Positions 3,319 through 59,728 of a stretch of 64,000 nucleotides of DNA are shown piece after piece. The stretch comes from Globomyces pollinis-pini (lineage: Eukaryota; Chytridiomycota; Chytridiomycetes; Rhizophydiales; Globomycetaceae). The notes beneath the pieces are model-generated. The model was not told the origin of the DNA. It made no database searches and saw nothing but the letters and a program-made list of their open reading frames with translations. Positions within the stretch are counted from its first letter, which is position 1, and every line of letters starts with the position of its first letter. The stretch spans positions 1 to 64,000 of the forward strand of contig MU621143.1 in NCBI GenBank assembly GCA_025399215.1. Reading direction: 5' to 3'. The position numbers and the translations under genes were made by a program.

Positions 3319-4335
3319 ATGAAAGAATTCGTGTCCTTCACATCTATCGGTCAATCCAACAATCTCATCCAATCTGTTACGGAAACTGTACGTTACATCG
3401 GTCGGGATGAAAACAACAAACCAATTTTGGATTTGAAAAAACCATTACCAAAATTGAAATTCACTGGTACCGTCAAATTGCATGGTACAAATGCTGGTGT
3501 ACTCTGGAATGAAATTGATGGACTTTGGTGTCAAAGTAGAAACAAAATCTTGACTGTTGAAGATGATAATATGGGATTTGCCAAGTTTGTTGATTCAAAC
3601 AAAAAAGTATTGGAAACGTTAATCAAAATGATTCCAAAGAAATCTGACGATACTGTATGTGTATATGGTGAATGGTGTGGTGGAAATATTCAAGCAAATG
3701 TGGCCTTACAGAAACTACCAAGAATGTTTGTTGTATTTTCTATTCAAGTCGTCAAAGGGGAAACTAGGGAATGGTTAACCACGGATATAATTCAATTGTT
3801 TGAATCTAAAGAAAACCAAATTTATAATACAATGATGTTTTCAAATTGGCAAATGGAAATTGATATGGGTAACTTCAAAGGAGTACAAAATCAATTGATC
3901 GAAATGACGGAAGAAGTTGAACGAGAATGTCCTGTTGGAAAATATTTTGGAGTATCTGGAGTTGGTGAAGGAATTGTTTGGATGACTTATGACGACCCAT
4001 TTGCTGGATCTTGCTTCAAAGTGAAAGGAAAGAAACATTCAGTTTCAAAAGTTAAAGTACTAGCTCCAATTGATCATGAAAAACTAGAATCTATTAAAGC
4101 TTTTGTTGATTACGCCGTCACCGAAAATCGTTTAAATCAAGGTATCGAGTATGTGTTTAGAATGAATAATGAAGAACCTACTATACAAAAAGTGGGTGCA
4201 TTTCTAAAATGGGTTCTTGGCGATATCATCAAAGAAGAGATTGAATCAATGAAAGCTAGTGGATTCACTCCAAAAGATGTCAACTCATCCTTGGTTGCTG
4301 CTATCAAGGAATGGTTTATTCAGAAATATACCTAA
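3319..4335 (+). CDS. Rnl2-like ATP-dependent RNA ligase
   Basis: Intronless, 338 aa. Nucleotidyltransferase motifs appear in order: motif I TVKLHGTNAG with the AMP-accepting lysine at residue 53 (K-x-H-G-T-N as in T4 Rnl2), motif III VYGEWCGG, motif IIIa FVVFSI, motif IV EGIVW, and motif V FKVKGKKHS with two lysines. The enzyme should seal RNA 3'-OH/5'-phosphate ends through an enzyme-AMP intermediate; the biological substrate is unknown. The frame is open from an ATG at 3238, but the Met at 3319 is preferred: it is preceded by an A/C-rich leader and starts just before conserved sequence. It is one of only two supported genes here without an intron, which raises the possibility of recent transfer from a virus or bacterium. 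Confidence 0.85.
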   Translation: MKEFVSFTSIGQSNNLIQSVTETVRYIGRDENNKPILDLKKPLPKLKFTGTVKLHGTNAGVLWNEIDGLWCQSRNKILTVEDDNMGFAKFVDSNKKVLETLIKMIPKKSDDTVCVYGEWCGGNIQANVALQKLPRMFVVFSIQVVKGETREWLTTDIIQLFESKENQIYNTMMFSNWQMEIDMGNFKGVQNQLIEMTEEVERECPVGKYFGVSGVGEGIVWMTYDDPFAGSCFKVKGKKHSVSKVKVLAPIDHEKLESIKAFVDYAVTENRLNQGIEYVFRMNNEEPTIQKVGAFLKWVLGDIIKEEIESMKASGFTPKDVNSSLVAAIKEWFIQKYT

Positions 4336-12132: not shown

Positions 12133-15100
12133 ATGGCAAGTCATTTACTGTCTAGGATTGTTGCAAATGCATTTAATGATACGTTAGCTCAAGCTCATTG
12201 GGCTGAAAAGAAATGGGTTTGGGTTGCTGATAAAAAAGAAGGTTATCTGCAAGCCTCCATTTCAAAAGAAAACGGAGATGAAGTCGTCATTTTATTAGAT
12301 GATAATACTGTATTGATTTCTTTCTTTCATTATTAGACTCGTACTGTAAATATCAATGACACGGAGAAAATGAACCCTCCAAAATTCGACCGTGTAGAAG
12401 ATATGGCTGAATTAACTCATTTAAATGAAGCATCTGTTGTTCATAACTTAAAATTGAGATATCTCTCTAACCTTATTTATGTAAGTTACACCAACACACA
12501 AATTGTTTCCTATATTTCTCATTTCACAAAAAAAAATACTTATGACTAACTATCTTAGACTTATTCTGGTTTATTCTGTGTGACTGTAAATCCTTACAAG
12601 AAGCTTCCTATTTATTCTGATGACATCATTAGAGCATACAAGGGAAAGAAACGATCCGAAATGCCACCACACGTTTACTGTGTCGTTGACCAAGCCTACA
12701 ATGATATGATCAACACTAAAGAAAATCAATCCATCTTAATTACGTAAGAAAATCTATTGTTTTTATGTTGCTAGTGGTGAATCTGGTGCTGGAAAGACTG
12801 AAAACACCAAAAAGGTTATTCAATACCTTGCTTCCTCTACCAATACATCAAATAAGTTGGGTCAGCTTGAGAACCAAATCTTGCAAGCTAACCCGGTTTT
12901 GGAAGCTTTTGGTAACGCTCAGACAATTCGTAACAACAACTCTTCCCGTTTTGTAAATTGATTTATTTTGATCATAATTATAGGGTAAATTCATTCGTAT
13001 TGAATTTGCTTCTTCTGGAATGATTGCTGGTGCAAATATTGAAAGATATTTATTGGAAAAATCTAGAGTGACTCATCAAACACCAAAAGAACGTAACTAT
13101 CATATCTTCTATCAATTACTCAAGGGTGCTACCAAAGACATTAAAGGTATAGGTATTGAATTGTTTATTTCTTTAGATAGTTTACTATTGGATGGTACTG
13201 CATCAGATTATCGTTTCACCAAAAATTCAAACAAAAATATTGATGGAGTTGATGATGCTGTTGATTTCAAAGCACTTTGTGTACGAATTGAAAATGATTT
13301 AATTGAATAGGAATCTCTTGGAATTATGGGTATTGACGGTACTGGACAATTGAGTTTGTTTAGAGTCATTGCTGGTATTTTACATCTCGGTAATTTGACA
13401 CTCGAGGCCGATCGAGAAGATAATGCCAACATCACTTCTCAATCCCAACAAGCCGTTCAAAAAGTTTGTCATGTCCTTGGAGTTTCCGTAACAGAATTTA
13501 CTCGAGCTTTACTCAAACCTCGTATCCGAGCAGGTCGAGATTGGGTGACACAAGCTAGAAACTGTGAACAAGTCTATTACTCTATTGAAGCATTAGCTCG
13601 ATCACTTTATGAACGTATGTTTGGTGATCTATTAGATCGTATCAACCAAACTCTTTACACCACTACTCAAAAAACTTCCTTTATTGGTGTTTTAGATATT
13701 GCTGGTTTTGAAATTTTCGAAAAGAATAGTTTTGAACAATTATGTATCAATTACACCAATGAAAAACTCCAACAATTCTTTAACCACCATATGTTTATCT
13801 TGGAACAAGAAGAATATAAACGAGAAGGCATTGAATGGAAATTTATTGATTTTGGATTGGATTTACTTCCAACCATTGAATTGATTGAAAAGACTTCGGT
13901 AATGCTTTGTTTTTGATTTATGTGTAGCCTATTGGTATTTTATCATTATTGGATGAAGAATGTGTGATGCCTAAAGCAACTGATAAAACGTTTATTGATA
14001 AATTAAATGGTTTATGGAAAGGAAAGAGTCCAAAATATGAAACTCCACGATTTAATGCTGGATTTATTTTACAACATTATGCTGGTAAAGTTGAATATAC
14101 TGTTGCTGGATGGTTGGATAAGAATAAAGATCCGTTGAATGAAAATGTGACCAAATTGTTGGCCAAATCTTCTGAAAAATATCTTTGTTTGTTATTCCAA
14201 GATAGTTTGGATGAAGGTGATGATGGAAATCGTGGTGGTGGTGGTCGAAGAGGTGCTTTCCGAACTGTTGGACAAAAACACAAGGAAGGTTTGACTTCAT
14301 TAATGAATCAACTTTATTCTACTGCTCCTCACTTTGTCCGTTGTATCATTCCAAATGAAGAAAAGAAACCTGGAAAAATTGATATCAATTTGGTGTTGGA
14401 TCAATTACGTTGTAATGGTGTACTTGAAGGTATTCGTATTTGTCGTGCTGGGTTCCCAAACAGACTTGTCTTTGAAGATTTCAAATCTCGTTATGAAGTT
14501 CTAGCGTACGGCTTATTACCAAAAGGTTATGTTGAAGGTCGAAAGGCCACACAAATTTTATTGGAACATCTTAATGTTGACAAGAATCAATATCGAATTG
14601 GGTCTTCAAAGGTTTTCTTTAGAGCCGGTGTACTTGCAGATTTAGAAAACCTACGTGATGTTCAATTAGCTAAATACGTTGTTCGTATCCAAGCCATCAT
14701 GAGAGGTTACTTGTGTAGAAAACTTTACAAACGTAAAATTGAACAATTTCGTGCTATTCGAATTATCCAGAAAAATGCTAGAGTCTATGTTTTACTTCGT
14801 GAATGGTCTTGGTGGAAACTATATACAAAAGTTAAACCATTACTCAATGTGACTCGAACGGATGAAGAATTGAAGAAACGTGAGGCTTTATTGAAAGAAT
14901 GGGAAGATAAAGCTAGAAAAGAAGCTGAAGAACGACAAAAGATTGAACAATTACGAGTTGCTTTAGAAATTGAAAATAAACGAATTGAAGAATTACTTGC
15001 TCAAGAAAAGAATGCAGCAATTGATCAAGCGGAAATTCTTGCACGTACTCAAAAACGGGAAGTTGATCTTAATGATCAAATTAAGGATATCATCAAAGAG

Positions 15101-19537: not shown

Positions 19538-20429
19538 TTAAGTATTTAAAAGTACATTTTCTTGTAGCAAATCCAATCGTGATTCAAGAGTGTTAGAACA
19601 CAAAATATTCCAATTTGGAGTTCCCAACACGACACCTCCATAACTGTTGTTAATTTCAACCTTATACCTTTCTTTAGGCAAAGGATTAGCCTTGTCAACT
19701 TCAATAGTGCAATCAATACCACTTGCTTGTTTGAAAATTTGGACTGCATCCTTAATTGCACTTTCTGCTAAGTTGTAATCTTGTTCACGGACTTTAACGA
19801 GAACATTTTTTTCCATTAAACGATACATTCCCTAAAAATTATTAATATTCATTCAATAGATCTTCAGATGGTGCAGTTTAGGTTTGATGTTGTGACTCAA
19901 GCCATAATTTAAGACAAATATAGTAGATATAGTACCTGAAGAAGAAGATTCTTCAACAATTCTTGATATTTTCCTGAATCTTTTGTTAGAGAGTTCAATT
20001 GCAATTTTGTCTGCGCGAATAAATCATTCAAAACTTGTTGCCGTTGGGCCAAGACTTGTAGTCTATTTTTGTTGATCAAATGGGATGCAGAGCTGCCGAT
20101 AGATTATTAACTAAGAAATTACCTTAGATTAGTACATTTATGAAATTACATTTTACGTTGAACATCAGCTTGTTTAAGTTTTTTTTGAAAGAAAGCTTCA
20201 ATAGCGACAGTTTCAGCTCTAACTAGCTTTCCCTTTTCGATGTTGAATTCTTCATCGGCCTTTATCTTAGTTTCCCTTGCTTTTTCCAGGGCCTCTTGTT
20301 TGATGAAGGCGACCTAAAGTATCAAGATAAAGTGATTTGCAATACCTAAACAATCATCAGTTTGATGATATTTCTAACCATTTTGTTCATTTCCTGAGCT
20401 ACTTCTGAATCATTCAATCTGCCAGCCAT
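19538..20429 (-). CDS. VMA4: V-type H+-ATPase subunit E
   Basis: 221 aa after splicing, close to the usual ~226. It starts MAGRLNDSEVAQEMNKMVAF, continues with the family helix (IKQEALEKARETKIKADEEF, then LINKNRLQVLAQRQQVLNDL) and ends with the conserved C-terminal domain (YNSYGGVVLGT-like NNSYGGVVLGTPNWNILCSN). Subunit E forms the peripheral stator of the vacuolar proton pump together with G (family knowledge). Of its three intron sites, two (20314-20378 and 20093-20149) are double introns joined AG|GT without an exon between; the third is a single 104-nt intron. Its stop faces the myosin stop, and it is divergent from COG7 (69 bp between start codons). Confidence 0.93.
20093..20149 (-). other. 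back-to-back double intron in VMA4 (site B)
   Basis: A 57-nt removed segment consists of a 27-nt GT-AG intron (20149-20123) directly abutting a 30-nt GT-AG intron (20122-20093). Both begin gtaatttc. Removing all 57 nt restores the family sequence QRK-I-SASHLINKNR. Confidence 0.85.
20314..20378 (-). other. back-to-back double intron in VMA4 (site A)
   Basis: A 65-nt removed segment divides into a 33-nt GT-AG intron (20378-20346) and a 32-nt GT-AG intron (20345-20314) with no base between them. Splicing the whole joins MNKM to VAFIKQE as in the family. Confidence 0.85.
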
Positions 20430-20498: not shown

Positions 20499-22892
20499 AT
20501 GACAGAGAAAGAGAATGTAACGAAACCTAGTATAAAAGGTATCAAATCATCAGATGAGAGTCTGCAAAACGAATTAGAATTGTTATTAGATTCAATCATG
20601 AAAGAGGAATCTGTTGAATCCCTGGCTACAAGAAAGAGTAACCTTCTTAACTAATCATAGTCGATGCTATCAATAATTTAACTGTCAATTATGAACTTCT
20701 TAAGTTGGAAAAATCAATTCAACTTCAACATCTAACAACTTCTGCAATTAATAGAATGCCAAATATATTGGCTGATATGAAAAAACTTCAATTAAAAATA
20801 AACGATATTCACTCTCTAGTAGCTTCCACCAAAGTCTCATTAAATGAAAAACATTCCAATGACAATGTTTTTGAATCTTTAGGTTAATTTCTATTAAACT
20901 AATATGTTAGGTATTCATATCTGTAATGATACTTATAATAGTACAATTGGACAGGGTAGCTTCTCGAATGAAAGCAACGAGATCTTGCTTAAAAGATGCT
21001 GATAATTGGTCAACAGTATCCGCTGAAATGGAAGTATTCATATATATTTATTAAAAGAAAGGCACTATTTGTCGCAAAAGATTATACAAAGGTTGCTCAA
21101 AGGTTGGAAGAAGCTGATAAATCATTGTCAATTTTATCCAATGTGAATGATTTGAATGATAGAAAAGAACTTTTACAATCATTATCTGATCAATTTATTA
21201 CGCTGTTGAAATCAGATTTAATGGAGGCAATGTCCACAAACAACCTCACGGATGTAAAGTCTCTTCTTTCTCATTTAAACACCATCCACAAATCAGATGA
21301 GATTACAAACATTTACTTCGATTCCCTTAAATCAACTTTGTCTGAAAAGTGGAAAGTCTCACAATCGGCTAAAGACTTGCTTATAGATCTCAAAAATTAT
21401 CTAACAGACTTATTGACACTTTTCAACAATGAAAAAAATCGCTGTCAAACTATTTTCGGAAAAGATAGTAATTTACAATTTAATCTGGTACTAAAAAGGC
21501 TATTGCAATCATTGGAACCTAACTTGACCAATCTTTTGTCCTTGATAGATAAATCTGGAAATGAAGCTAGTATAGTTATTTTCGTTCAAGTATTATAGTT
21601 ATCCATTAATCGTTAGTTTTATCAAATTGTATTGGCATTTGGGTCACAATTTGAAAAAGAATACCCTGTAGAGCAATCTAATGCTAAATGGAGCACAGAG
21701 TTATTTCAACCATTCATTTATTATCAGGTTTGATTTTCATTAATTAACAGAATTGATTAGAAAAAATATGACGTTTATGAAAGAAAATGTTTAAAATCCA
21801 AATCAAAACTGTTTACATCAGATTCACAGAAATTATTAATGTCTTCCATTAGTACTGCTGAGTTGGCATTGAATCGATTTATACAATTCACATTCTGCTT
21901 GCCAAAAAGTGATATCGCCAATCTACTTGACGAATTTTTTTCTGATGTCATTCACAATTTCAAAAATAGAAATGGTATTATAAAGAGTGACGTAGATTAT
22001 CTTGATCAGACGGAGCTGACTGAATCTGACCTAAAATTATTTCAAAATTGCATTGATGGCTTGAAGCAAGCGGTTAGCTTTCGACAGCAGGTAAATCTTT
22101 TGCTTTAACGCGAAGTTGGAAGAGTTTTGGGCGAAAGTTGATGAAGGTTTGAATAGCCCTCTTGCAAAAGGATCAATAATGGCAAAGTCGCCCCCAGAAA
22201 TATGTCAAACGAGTGTATCTAGTCTCTCTTCCTTGAAAGGGTTTGCTCACAAAGTTGGCGAGAAACATTCTTCTATCCAGCAATCATTTGACTTGGTCTA
22301 TAAGAATCAAGAGCAAGTACTACATTCAATATTGGTACCAGTTACCTCCATTTTAGATAAATTTACATCAATGATTGAATGGAGTTCAACAAATGGAGAG
22401 TCACAAAACGTCCCACAATTCAGCCTTTCTCCCCTACCATACATCACTTGCATTGGAGAATATCTTTTGACATTGCCTCAATATTTTGACTCTTATTCAC
22501 AAGAAGAGTTTCTGAAAGTGTTTGTAAACGAGTTGCCATTGCTTACAAAGGATGATAAGGAACAGTCTAACGATGATGACTCGTCTTTAGATTCAGAAGA
22601 AGTCGAAGACAGTATCAACATTTGGATTACATCAGCTGTACGAATCACTGAAGACTATTATGTCAAGCAAATCCTCAAGCTGACCACTATGACTGAACAA
22701 GGACGTATGCAACTTATTGCTGATATAACATATTTAAAAAATGTTATGGCAGCAATCGAAATTGATCCTACTGAGCCATTTTCATTTGTTCTAACTGGGT
22801 TAGAATTAACCATTGAAGAGTTGACAGAATTTATGGAGAAACATGATCACACTGTTTTGAAGACTATCATGTCATTGCGAGTGAAGAAATAA
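20499..22892 (+). CDS. COG7: conserved oligomeric Golgi complex subunit 7
   Basis: Six intron sites (one of them double) give 732 aa. The N-terminal half matches COG7: LQHLTTSAINRMPNILAD (family: ALQNMP...), then VQLDRVASRMKATRSCLKDA, DNWSTVSAEMEALF and AKDYTKVAQRLEEADKSL. The remainder is alpha-helical and divergent (DLLPLLTKDDKEQ-like acidic loop near residue 600). COG7 is part of lobe B of the COG tether that retains Golgi glycosylation enzymes (family knowledge). The start at 20499 opens a frame that runs through a 23-nt intron into the conserved helix. It is followed on the same strand, 97 bp on, by phosphomannose isomerase, another glycosylation gene. Confidence 0.8.
20883..20941 (+). 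other. back-to-back double intron in COG7
   Basis: The 59 nt between NVFESL and VQLDRVASRM divide into a 28-nt GT-AG intron (20883-20910) and a 31-nt GT-AG intron (20911-20941) with no exon base between them. Confidence 0.85.
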
Positions 22893-48011: not shown

Positions 48012-49496
48012 ATGGCTGCAAAACAAGGAGAGGGTTTAACAACCTACTACAAAAATAAGATCGAGGTAAAAAATATTTGATGATTGATCTTAGGTATGGA
48101 TGATATGATTAATTCAATCCTAGGTAATGTACAGATGTATTGATTTTTAGCAATTAGAGGTCAAGGTATTCATCTATTCATTAATTTATTTAGGTATCAA
48201 AATCTCTTAAAACTAATTAAAAGTGCAACTCTATGACCTTGAACCTTCGACGACTGGAAGCTCAACGAAATCAGCTCAATGCAAAAGTTAGACTTTTGAG
48301 AGAAGAATTGCAACTATTACAGGAACCAGGAAGTTATGTTGGAGAAGTTGTAAAACTCATGGGCAAAAAGAAAGTATTGGTTAAAGTCAATACTGAAGGA
48401 AAATATGTGGTTGATATTCACCCTTCTATTGATATTGCTTTATTGACTCCAACCGTTAGAATTGCTTTACGACACGATTCTTATCAACTACATAAAGTTT
48501 TACCGAATAAGATTGATCCATTGGTGTCTTTGATGATGGTTGAAAAAGTACCTGATTCTACTTATGATATGATTGGTGGATTAGAAAATCAGATCAAAGA
48601 AATCAAAGAAGTCATTGAATTACCTGTTAAACATCCGGAGTTGTTTGATTCCTTGGGAATTGCGCAACCAAAAGGTTAGAATTTGTTTTACTCATTGTTG
48701 AAGGTGTTTTATTGTATGGACCACCAGGTACAGGAAAGACCTTACTTGCTCGGTTAGTTATTTTTTCTTATGTTATCTTTAGTGCTGTTGCCCATCATAC
48801 AGACTGTAGATTTATTCGTGTATCTGGATCTGAACTTGTCCAAAAATACATTGGTGAAGGTTCAAGAATGGTTAGAGAACTATTCGTAATGGCTCGTGAA
48901 CATGCACCTTCTATTATCTTTATGGATGAAATTGATTCTATCGGTTCCAGTCGAGGTATTGACCCATGTACCATTAATGTAAGGTGATGGTGGAGGTGGT
49001 AGTGGTGGTGATAGTGAAGTACAACGTACCATGTTGGAATTGTTGAATCAATTGGATGGATTCGAAGCCACACAAAGTATTAAAGTAATTATGGCAACAA
49101 ATCGTATCGATATTCTTGACGCTGCTCTTTTAAGACCTGGTATATCATCGATGACCATTAATACCATAGGTCGTATTGATCGTAAAATTGAATTCCCACC
49201 TCCAAATGAAGCAGCCCGTGCTGATATTTTAAAGATCCACTCTAGAAAGATGAATCTTACTCGTGGTATAGATTTGGTCAAGATAGCCGAAAAAATGACT
49301 GGAGCAAGTGGTGCTGAAGTCAAAGGTGTGTGTACTGAAGCAGGTATGTATGCTTTGCGTGAACGTCGTGTTCATGTCACCCAAGAGGATTTTGAAATGG
49401 CTGTATCCAAGGTATCTGTCTTTTTTAAACTTATACTGTTAGGTTTTGAAAAAAGATTCCGAGCAGAATATGTCTATCAAAAAATTATTCAAATAA
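48012..49496 (+). CDS. RPT6: 26S proteasome ATPase Rpt6
   Basis: 397 aa after splicing. It begins [20 protein letters not shown], then [20 protein letters not shown] (coiled coil), [20 protein letters not shown], Walker [33 protein letters not shown], Walker [35 protein letters not shown] and a C terminus SIKKLFK. Rpt6 is one of six ATPases that unfold substrates at the base of the proteasome (family knowledge). Two of its seven intron sites are stacks: three introns end to end at 48066-48150 and two at 48166-48223, flanking a 15-base exon (48151-48165, QLEVK). The other introns are 28-31 nt. Confidence 0.95.
48066..48150 (+). other. triple back-to-back intron in RPT6
   Basis: 85 nt between KIE and QLEVK divide without remainder into three GT-AG introns of 28 (48066-48093), 30 (48094-48123) and 27 nt (48124-48150). 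Each boundary reads AG|GT with no exon base between. Confidence 0.88.
48166..48223 (+). other. back-to-back double intron in RPT6
   Basis: 58 nt directly after the 15-base exon divide into GT-AG introns of 28 (48166-48193) and 30 nt (48194-48223) joined AG|GT. Confidence 0.85.
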
Positions 49497-54180: not shown

Positions 54181-55912
54181 ATGTCAATGACTCCTGATGA
54201 AAAGTAACGAATTTCAATTCTGATAAAAGGTTCAATTTGATTACTAGAAATTTACAAGAATACCTAGGTGCAGATAGAATCAAATCAGTTTTACAAGAAC
54301 GTGATTTAAAAGTTTACTGGGGAACGGCTACGACTGGAAAACCACATATTGGTTACTTTGTCGCTATGGCGAAAATTGCTGATATGTTGCATGCTGGTTG
54401 TCATGTATACTTCAATCCATCTCATCTTAGGTTACCGTTTTATTTGCAGATTTACATGCTTATCTGGATAATATGAAGGCTCCTTGGTCATTATTGAAAC
54501 TAAGAGCTAAATATTATGAAAATATCATTAAAAATATGTTGATTTCTATTGGTGTCAATATTGAAAAATTAAAATTCGTATTTGGTACTTCTTATCAATT
54601 ATCAAGAGAATACACTTTGGATGTCTATCGATTATCTGCCATCACTTCGGAGCATGATGCTAAAAAGGCTGGTGGTAATGAACCATCATAGTAACTTTCA
54701 TAGCGGAGGTGGTCAAACAAGTAGAATCTCCTCAACTTTCTGGATTAGTTTATCCTTTATTACAAGCATTAGATGAAGAATATCTTGATGTAGATGCACA
54801 ATTTGGAGGAGTAGATCAGCGAAAAATCTTTACCTTTGCTGAAAAATATATGCCTCAATTGGGATATAAAAAGAGAGCTCATTTGATGAATCCAATGGTG
54901 GGTGGTTTGAGTGGTTCAAAAATGAGTGCTTCCGACCCAAACTCCAAGATCGATATTTTGGATTCAAAAGCAGATATTGAAGCCAAACTTAAAAAGGCAT
55001 TTTGTGAAGAAGGAAATGTGGATGAAAATCCTATTCTCGCGTTTTTGAAATTTGTCGTGTTTCCTGTTAAATCTGTTTCTGGAAATCATTACGAATTCAA
55101 AATTAACCGACCTGAAAAGTTTGGTGGAAACGTTTCCTATGCAAATTGGGATGATTTATGTGCTGCATTCGCTGCAAAAGATATCCATCCTGGTGATTTA
55201 AAGAAAGCTGCAGGTATGTCTTTATTCGGTGATTCATTCTTTCAGCTGAAGCATTGGACTCTTTATTAGCCCCTATTAGAGTAGCTTGGGCAAAGGATCC
55301 TGAGTTGGCTAAATTAACTTTGGCTGCTTATCCTCCACCAAAACCAAAAATTAGTTCTGACATTTCCAGATTAGGTAATTGATCCTTCTTTAATTATCAA
55401 GACCTTCGTGTTGGAAAGGTTTTAGAAGTCTCTCATCATCCTGAAAAGGAGGTATAACTGAATTACATTTCTAACGTATGCAGAATCTCTACATTGAAAA
55501 AATCGATCTTGGTGAAGAGACTGGTCCACGTACCATAGTCAGTGGATTAGTTAACTACATCTCAGTTGAAGATTTCACTGGCCGTCTGGTAGTGGTCGCA
55601 ACAAACTTGAAAGCATCAAAATTTGCAGGTGTGTTATCACAAGGAATGGTTCTTGCAGCCTCCAACAGTGACAAATCACAAGTAGAATTGTTGACACCAC
55701 CAGAAGATGCTAAAGTTGGGGAATCCATTACATTTGATGGATTTGAAAGTAAACCAGATGCAGTGTTGAATCCTAAACATAAGATATTTGAAAAGTGTGC
55801 AGTTGACTTTTCTACTACTGAAGAATGTGTTGCTACATTCAAAGGAGTGCCATTTATGACATCTGATGGATCTGTTACATGTGCAACATTACAAGGTGCC
55901 AATATCAGTTAA
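54181..55912 (+). CDS. tyrosyl-tRNA synthetase with C-terminal EMAPII domain
   Basis: Seven exons (introns 26-32 nt) give 518 aa. Catalytic domain: [18 protein letters not shown] (HIGH motif as HIGY), [51 protein letters not shown] and KMSKS variant [14 protein letters not shown]. From about residue 355 an EMAPII/Arc1-type OB fold follows: [36 protein letters not shown] and [20 protein letters not shown]. This two-domain layout is that of animal cytosolic TyrRS and some protists, whereas baker's yeast TyrRS has no EMAPII domain. The appended domain binds tRNA. The start at 54181 opens an exon of only 23 bases. Confidence 0.95.
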
Positions 55913-58572: not shown

Positions 58573-59728
58573 ATGGGAAGATTAGATGGTAAAGTTGCTT
58601 TAGTTACTGGTGCTGCTTCAGGTATTGAACCATCCAAAAACTGAATTTTTTTTATATAGGTAATTAGATTAGTTGAATTTGATGATATGATAGGAATTGG
58701 TTTTGAAACTGCTGTTTTATTTGCAAAAGTTAGTTTTAAATTGAATCTTATATTTAAAGGAAGGTGCAAAAGTTGTTTGTGCAGATATCAATGAAAATGC
58801 TGGTAATTTAGCTTTACAAAAATTATTGGGTTTATTGGATCCTTCACTTAAATCTACCAATCCTGCAGTTTTTGTCAAGGTTGATGTATCAAAAGAATCG
58901 GATCTTGAAAATGCTGTCAAAGTTGCTGAATCCACTTTTGGTATTTCATTTTATTAAATAATATCTTAGGGTATTTCATTCTAAAGGTTGTTGATTGATT
59001 AGTAAATTGAATATTATCTTCAATAATGCTGGAATTATGCATCCTGATGATGATAATGCAACCAGTACTACCGAAAAAGTAATTTGTTTTGATGGTTTAA
59101 TATGAAAGGTTTGGGATTTGACCATGAACATCAATGTAAAGGGTGTTTGGTATGGATGTCGACATGGTATTCCTGCTCTTCGTCGTGCCGGTGGTGGTAG
59201 TATCATTAACAGTATGTTGATTTTTTTATTAACTGTTTAACTTTAGCTGCTTCATTTGTAATTGTTTCAATTTCATAATTATAGGTTGCAATCATGGGTG
59301 CTGCTACTCCTCAATTGGCTTGTATGCAAATTTGATTATTTAATGTTCAGATACCGCTTCTAAAGGTGCTGTTCTTGCCATGACTCGTGAATTGGCTACC
59401 ATTCATGCTAGAGAAAACATTAGAGTGAATGCTCTTTGTCCAGGTCCAATTCGCACACGTATACTAGTTCAGTTTTAATGAATTAGCATTATTAATGGAC
59501 TTTTTGAACACTGAAGAAAAGAAAAATCGTCGATTAGTTCATGTACCTATGGGTAGATTTGGTGAAGCTATTGAACAAGCATATGCTGCTTTGTTCCTTG
59601 CCTCTGATGAATCTACCTTTATTACTGGTACTGATTTCGCAGTCGATGGTGGTTTGACTGGTGCTTATGTCACCCCTGAAGGCCCTACTACCACTCACAG
59701 TGTTCACAAGAACTTTTCTGGTGTCTAA
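58573..59728 (+). CDS. short-chain dehydrogenase/reductase
   Basis: 280 aa from a gene cut by eight intron sites, two of them stacked. Rossmann motif LVTGAASGIGFETAVLFAKE, VCADINENAG, then FGKLNIIFNNAGIMHP, VWDLTMNINVKGVWYGCRHG, SIINTASFVAIMGAATPQLA and catalytic YTASKGAVLAMTRE, NIRVNALCPGPIRTPLLMDF, GTDFAVDGGLTGAYVTPEGP. Ser, Tyr and Lys of the active site are present; the Tyr codon is split by an intron (T|AT). Classical SDR with NAD(P); the substrate is unknown. Residues F-G-K-L of the NNAG region can be encoded only if a single G at 58970 is an exon on its own. Confidence 0.9.
58622..58693 (+). other. back-to-back double intron in SDR (site A)
   Basis: 72 nt inside the GAASG-IG motif divide into GT-AG introns of 38 (58622-58659) and 34 nt (58660-58693) with no base between. 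Confidence 0.82.
58941..59002 (+). other. two introns flanking a one-base exon in SDR (site B)
   Basis: Intron 58941-58969 (29 nt), exon G at 58970, intron 58971-59002 (32 nt). Both introns begin gtatttcatt. Removing the 62 nt as one intron shifts the frame and stops at once; keeping the G gives TTT GGT AAA TTG, the family's F-G-K-L. Confidence 0.75.

Follow-up and report, generated by a model that had tools for sequence, protein, structure and literature searches.

Zero-length exons and recursive splicing have been studied as aids for long introns. The size range of recursively spliced introns has since been extended (PMC10156609), and in fungi another arrangement, the stwintron, was described, in which one intron interrupts a splice element of another and the outer intron works only once the inner one is gone (PMC5639578). 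For a stwintron case in Lipomyces starkeyi, removal in one step or in two steps was reported (PMC7138796). Furthermore, single AGGT sites with dual specificity are enriched in tandem-repeat genes (PMC10809524). In the chytrid genome analysed here, a junction of the recursive type joins some of the shortest introns, for example in proteasome subunit, gamma-tubulin and V-ATPase genes. Our results revealed stacks of complete mini-introns whose units abut exactly, and full removal of the units restores conserved proteins.

The starting point was the gene for RPT6 in the window, that is, the whole 64-kb stretch of DNA that was analysed, on contig C54 of an 18.5-Mb eukaryotic assembly. The gene begins with the following features:

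48012..48065, + strand: first coding exon of RPT6, 18 residues; the spliced protein is gapless against RPT6/PSMC5 chains from residue 3
48066..48093, + strand: stack A unit 1, 28 nt, GT-AG, with YTRAY; in-frame stop if it alone is retained
48094..48123, + strand: stack A unit 2, 30 nt, GT-AG, meeting units 1 and 3 at AG|GT, with YTRAY; in-frame stop if it alone is retained
48124..48150, + strand: stack A unit 3, 27 nt, GT-AG, with YTRAY; in-frame stop if it alone is retained
48151..48165, + strand: RPT6 exon of 15 nt between stacks A and B, encoding QLEVK, which is also found in the Kappamyces and Boothiomyces proteins
48166..48193, + strand: stack B unit 1, 28 nt, GT-AG, with YTRAY; gapless protein alignment after removal
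48194..48223, + strand: stack B unit 2, 30 nt, GT-AG, with YTRAY; gapless protein alignment after removal

The 85 nt at 48066-48150 consist of three GT-AG units, 28, 30 and 27 nt long, with nothing left over, and each unit of both stacks, five in total, carries the branch-like motif YTRAY. When both stacks were removed, the protein aligned without gaps with 26S regulatory subunit 8 (PSMC5/RPT6) chains and with the proteins of Kappamyces sp. and Boothiomyces; from MTLNL on, it shared 96% identity with the Entophlyctis helioformis, Boothiomyces macroporosus and Kappamyces sp. JEL0680 proteins, which identifies the source as a chytrid fungus. The preliminary description of the 85 nt as three abutting GT-AG introns was borne out by the exact split and the gapless protein, and the size of the units, which it had called normal for the genome, agrees with the mode of 28 nt among modelled mini-introns. 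The second stack (48166-48223, 28+30 nt) was absent from that description, as was the likeness between units in some stacks. The RPT6 protein used for alignment was joined by hand from gene models, and the gene finder split RPT6 into two genes both with and without zero-length exons, although the model with zero-length exons did recover the three-unit stack. Stacks are thus a trap for annotation.

Four further stacks were supported in the window:

20314..20378, - strand: stack in the gene for V-ATPase subunit E, 33+32 nt; protein residues 5-227 gapless against subunit E chains
20093..20149, - strand: second stack in the same gene, 27+30 nt; protein residues 5-227 gapless against subunit E chains
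20883..20941, + strand: stack in a COG7-like gene, 28+31 nt; gene model, with a Pfam COG7 match (residues 69-283) that spans the join
58622..58693, + strand: stack in a short-chain dehydrogenase (SDR) gene, 38+34 nt, inside TGAAS|GIG; gene model, with Pfam adh_short

The window therefore holds six supported stacks: two in RPT6, two in V-ATPase E, one in the COG7-like gene and one in the SDR gene. Six further sites besides the first had been claimed; five further stacks can be counted as supported, and a seventh stack was not found among the listed gene-model gaps of 44-125 nt in the window. Two other genes on the + strand of the window may be mentioned: an intronless predicted protein at 3319-4335, which we take to resemble a T4 Rnl2-type RNA ligase, and a protein at 54181-55912, presumably like tyrosyl-tRNA synthetase, with a C-terminus that we assume to resemble a tRNA-binding domain of the EMAP-II type. 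This domain on tyrosyl-tRNA synthetase is typical of animals, not yeast.

Longer stacks were found elsewhere in the genome. In protein alignments, the joins were gapless for 11 stacks of 2-5 units each, namely two in RPT6, one in a CLK-type kinase gene, two in gamma-tubulin, one each in a PSMA1-type, a Rad6-type E2 and a PSMB4-type gene, two in V-ATPase E and one in a NIF phosphatase gene. A twelfth protein-supported stack, with three units (26+26+28 nt) inside HTLE|HLIF of an M16 peptidase, has a Pfam match that spans the join. The kinase stack on contig C1 comprises five units in 138 nt (25+27+29+28+29) between HDLG and LIHTDLKPEN, and the protein is gapless against CLK2 at the join. In the gamma-tubulin gene on contig C15, four units (29+24+26+29) lie at FFYQ|ADD and two (26+26) at DSLE|GF, with 212 residues aligned and no gaps. 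The five units of the NIF-type phosphatase gene on contig C14 (26+26+34+27+28), of which the gene model had left 34+27 as a single piece of 61 nt, likewise leave no gap at the join when taken out of the sequence. The PSMA1-type and Rad6-type E2 genes have two units each and the PSMB4-type gene has three, all gapless at the joins. The total length of a stack ranges from 51 to 141 nt. Since model ends were doubtful or models were assembled by hand, the protein queries for gamma-tubulin, NIF, the SDR locus L041 (see below) and the kinase were trimmed to their conserved part.

A two-unit stack at 1666-1721 of locus L020 was not counted as protein-supported, with a one-residue gap near the join. 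Stack density was above that of the rest of the sample in L015 (82-1881; G000:C76), where the models placed five stacks, four of two units and one of three, within about 1.8 kb that cover three genes (one proteasome beta-type, one E2 and one other); the E2 stack alone was checked by alignment.

In size, the units are like the ordinary introns of this genome. Our gene finder, which was purpose-written and used a smooth intron-length prior without a peak, modelled 630 introns with lengths of 22-36 nt across 295 kb (a setting with introns of up to 300 nt and a high cost for gene starts merged genes and was dropped). YTRAY was present in 0.58 of 756 single mini-introns compared with 0.26 after shuffling, its stronger forms lying in most cases 6-10 nt from the last G, and the genome has one U2 snRNA match, which contains GTAGTA. 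With GT-AG borders, a branch-like motif near the 3' end and a canonical U2 snRNA in the genome, the mini-introns have the features of the U2 type. Two further observations were made on introns in general. Stopless 3n introns numbered 70 of 787 single mini-introns versus 101 of 787 when shuffled, a deficit that hints at selection by way of nonsense-mediated decay. Furthermore, the donor GTATGT or GTAAGT occurred in 0.167 of 60 introns of at least 60 nt and in 0.062 of 756 mini-introns, which suggests two size classes of introns.

How the stacks are removed is a matter of interpretation. We think that the units of a stack, two to five complete mini-introns of the U2 type that share one intron position and meet at AG|GT, are probably removed as separate introns of normal size. 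Each unit, mostly of 24-34 nt, would be spliced on its own, with zero-length exons between the units. Because the removal of any unit leaves the GT and AG of its neighbours intact, any order of removal, or the joint removal of several units, would result in one and the same mRNA. The ladder from 5' to 3' with the first unit removed first, as proposed in the preliminary description, would be only one possible order. Unit-by-unit removal is what we infer from the sequence, and the branch-like motifs in the non-last units appear to be the best support for separate splicing. In the 12 protein-supported stacks, YTRAY was present in 18 of 23 non-last units against a shuffled mean of 6.6, and 0 of 300 shuffles reached 18. 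Loci L041-L050 were excluded from the base, or unselected, tests because they had been picked from genome-wide matches partly for alike or repeated units; with them excluded, the motif was present in 10 of 13 non-last units of protein-supported stacks (3.6 when shuffled; 0/300) and in 6 of 8 first units (2.3 when shuffled; 2/300). Among the non-last units of all stacks, L041 excluded, 30 of 55 carried it. Speaking against separate splicing, the donor score at the base loci was lower in stacks, with 3.27 for first units and 2.87 for internal units (n=8), than the 3.72 of single mini-introns.

It is also conceivable, though in our opinion rather unlikely, that each stack is one long intron running from the first GT to the last AG and that the internal AG|GT are unused, being relics of duplication or accidents. 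Non-last units would then need no branch point, and the excess of YTRAY in the non-last units of protein-supported stacks speaks against this. When every model-called stack of the base loci was taken, protein-supported or not, first units showed no excess of the motif (8 of 24, against a shuffled proportion of 0.31), which is in favour of a single long intron. Long introns without internal AGGT do exist in the window, for example a single intron of 78 nt in a myosin-like gene (12481-12558) and one of 104 nt in V-ATPase E (19832-19935), showing that the spliceosome can also take out longer pieces at once. Of the sampled gaps of 44-125 nt, 41 had good support for the exon on either side; 9 of these split into GT-AG units of 20-38 nt while 32 did not, and long single introns are therefore commoner than stacks. 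The closest precedent for removal in one step comes from fission yeast, where the intron of one gene extends over four 24-bp duplicates that contain AGGT (PMC4974935). On the other side, stacks with dissimilar units, such as those of RPT6 and the kinase, still split exactly into units of normal size, an argument that is weakened because stacks which have lost internal sites count as long introns.

Regarding the origin of the stacks, the likeness between units was compared. At the base loci, adjacent units had a likeness of 0.407 (n=32), while neighbouring separate introns of one gene had 0.354 (n=563; p=0.0018). Random pairs of single mini-introns showed a mean of 0.345, with the 95th percentile at 0.50 and the 99th at 0.55, and 0.12 of the 32 base adjacent pairs exceeded the 95th percentile. 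The likeness signal in the base stacks is thus modest. Higher values were seen at loci fetched partly for likeness (M16 0.80; gamma-tubulin 0.70 and 0.59; NIF 0.65 and 0.64), and also in PSMA1 (0.59) and E2 (0.56), which were not fetched for it. Values not above 0.50 were found for RPT6 (0.46, 0.38 and 0.40), the kinase (0.37-0.48) and PSMB4 (0.31 and 0.33). Judging from these sequences, part of the stacks likely arose by tandem duplication: a mini-intron would have been duplicated whole and in place. Since all removal paths give the same mRNA, such a duplication would be almost invisible to selection, and stacks could build up. For stacks with dissimilar units, either the duplication is old or there was a second route.

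Such a route could be the insertion of a new, unrelated intron at an existing intron border, where AG|G would be the favoured site, instead of duplication of the resident intron. The dissimilar units of many stacks fit this, and so does the preference for G at the exon ends beside mini-introns (361 of 630 at -1 and 213 of 630 at +1). However, the mean likeness of adjacent units exceeds that of neighbouring separate introns, and the three arrays that were searched genome-wide, those of L041, M16 and gamma-tubulin, matched only themselves, with simple repeats and very common words skipped, so that no dispersed copies were found. Nor was there an excess of target-site duplication in the 8 nt on either side of 743 single mini-introns (2.408 matches versus 2.465 expected; 2.707 versus 2.710). 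A comparison of introns as copies of neighbouring exons, covering the first and last 8 nt, gave no excess. Insertion as the general origin of the stacks seems doubtful to us. Returning to duplication, we propose tentatively, with somewhat less than even confidence, that complete introns here behave as minisatellite units, which would grow in tandem and in place at many hundreds of sites, hidden from the proteome by order-free splicing unit by unit through zero-length exons, with stacked splicing routine in the expression of housekeeping genes.

One locus was treated separately. In L041 (978-1139; G000:C68:15877-16038), six 27-nt GT..AG units stand at the start of an SDR gene. Units 2-6 are diverged tandem repeats with an open frame of hydrophobic 9-residue repeats that runs into the SDR protein, and the last unit contains ATG. 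The description of this array as a six-unit intron stack was withdrawn, given the open frame of units 2-6 joined to the protein and a join outside the alignments, and for the same open frame the locus was left out of the protein-supported counts; the all-loci likeness and motif figures still include it. It had been the longest and most conspicuously repeated of the arrays, and its loss lowers our confidence in the minisatellite proposal. The repeats may be coding or a 5' leader, and one sequence could be serving both as a mini-intron repeat and as a coding repeat. Another array was observed in L052 (280-740; G000:C402), with tandem repeats at periods of 40, 92 and 132 nt (98% matches for 132). 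These repeats contain 26-nt GT-AG units with 14 nt between them, possibly a mini-intron and a tiny exon multiplying together.

The number of stacks was compared with controls in which units were forced apart by a fixed spacer that was removed too, with frames and flanks treated alike. Ten overlapping loci (L005, L008-L010, L012, L013 and L016-L019) were left out of all counts, as were genes below a model score of 12 (8 where stated). Using gene models in 295 kb, a set that includes ten proteasome-gene loci and the window, we obtained 21 stacks at spacer 0 versus 0-4 (mean 0.75) at spacers 1-20; for chains of any length, the figures were 20 versus 0-6 (mean 1.4) at spacers 1-30. In the window plus twenty 10-kb stretches (264 kb), 11 stacks were found at scores >8 and 9 at scores >12, each against a mean of 1.20 and a maximum of 5, and 8 with a flat length prior, against a mean of 1.10 or 1.03 and a maximum of 4; the largest control counts in this set occurred at spacer 30, which equals one intron length. 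The twenty stretches outside the window (200 kb) gave 8 stacks at scores >8 (mean 0.87, maximum 4), 6 at scores >12, and 5 with a flat prior (0.87 or 0.83, maximum 3). By extrapolation from the 8 model stacks and the kinase stack in these 200 kb, there would be about 800 stacks in the 18.5-Mb genome, of which about one in nine would be expected by the spacer control.

Genome-wide, the two-unit pattern gave 224 matches on both strands, with 100 for the reversed-pattern control. When the upstream GTAT was moved 16 nt further off, 103 matches were obtained (reversed-pattern control 123), and one base at the junction left 63 (reversed-pattern control 70). The 1-nt spacer is a weak control because ordinary exon AG|GTAT introns inflate the count at spacer 0, and the moved-site control is the trustworthy one. 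A genome-wide excess of AG|GT at intron-length spacing, the lack of which the preliminary description had named among two refuting outcomes, was therefore found (224 versus 103). Raw sequence without gene models offered weak support, with 60 at spacer 0 versus 19-53 at spacers 1-30. A raw chain count, which was noisy and showed long chains at spacer 15 too, was set aside. Among the genome-wide matches listed, 98 sequences out of 224 were compared by the end of their first unit, the longer overlapping variant C7:65445 being excluded. YTRAY was present in 0.47 of the first units ending in TAG (n=49, of which L041 supplies 4) versus 0.12 when shuffled, and in 0.16 of those not ending in TAG (n=49); first units of the latter kind in this list are largely chance matches.

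Random intron-like sequences were also split. Two units were obtained from 2.6% of 20,000 58-mers, three GT-AG units of 24-34 nt from 85-mers at a frequency of 0.00037 (60,000 draws), and five units from none of 60,000 138-mers. That in an AT-rich genome some introns 50-90 nt long carry AG|GT at a spacing of about 28 nt accidentally is thus a very improbable explanation, already contradicted by the spacer and moved-site controls for the set as a whole and by the protein-supported stacks of 3, 4 and 5 units, although the split of random 58-mers and about one false stack per 200-300 kb in the spacer controls mean that chance may account for a few of the two-unit stacks known only from models. 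The earlier statement that chance was unlikely agrees with all three kinds of control.

Within one organism there are many natural cases, with one to five units, that lend themselves to testing. They bear on spliceosome assembly on 24-34 nt, on the removal of neighbouring introns in free order and on the growth of intron sequence, for whole-intron duplication would be neutral to splicing and could spread.

Compared with known systems, the marks of introners were not seen, as neither dispersed copies (three arrays, very common words skipped) nor target-site duplications (743 single mini-introns) were found; in the parts of an introner survey cited here, the words tandem, nested and recursive were absent (PMC9860276). 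Among the literature matches listed, with subscription journals largely outside their scope, none described complete mini-introns in arrays or the stacking of introns in chytrids. Stwintrons are similar in that two U2 introns occupy one position in fungi and are removed consecutively (PMC7138796). However, no splice element is split in the stacks, the order would be free and more than two units are possible. An interrupted donor, branch or acceptor was not seen: the GT start and AG end were unbroken in all units of the 12 protein-supported stacks (10 checked letter by letter, M16 and NIF read), where the gene models allow only an abutting layout. By these features, the stacks are not stwintrons (PMC5639578; PMC7138796; PMC12403724). 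In exonic tandem duplication of AGGT, a tandem duplication likewise makes AG and GT borders (PMC4974935), but an exonic or exon-intron segment is duplicated there, while it would be a whole intron here where units are alike. At dual-specific sites, one AGGT is also both 3' and 5' splice site (PMC10809524), but their products differ in the number of coding repeats, as in human polyubiquitin, while a stack would give one product. Recursive splicing shares with the stacks a 3' splice site directly followed by a 5' splice site (AG|GT) within the intervening sequence, where upstream removal leaves a usable GT donor (PMC5126111). It has been described mainly for long animal introns, and a very long host intron is usual though not strictly required, whereas the stacks consist of complete introns of 24-34 nt with totals of 51-141 nt. 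The splicing logic of the stacks would be one already known, both from recursive splicing via zero-length exons (PMC5126111) and from dual-specific AGGT sites (PMC10809524).
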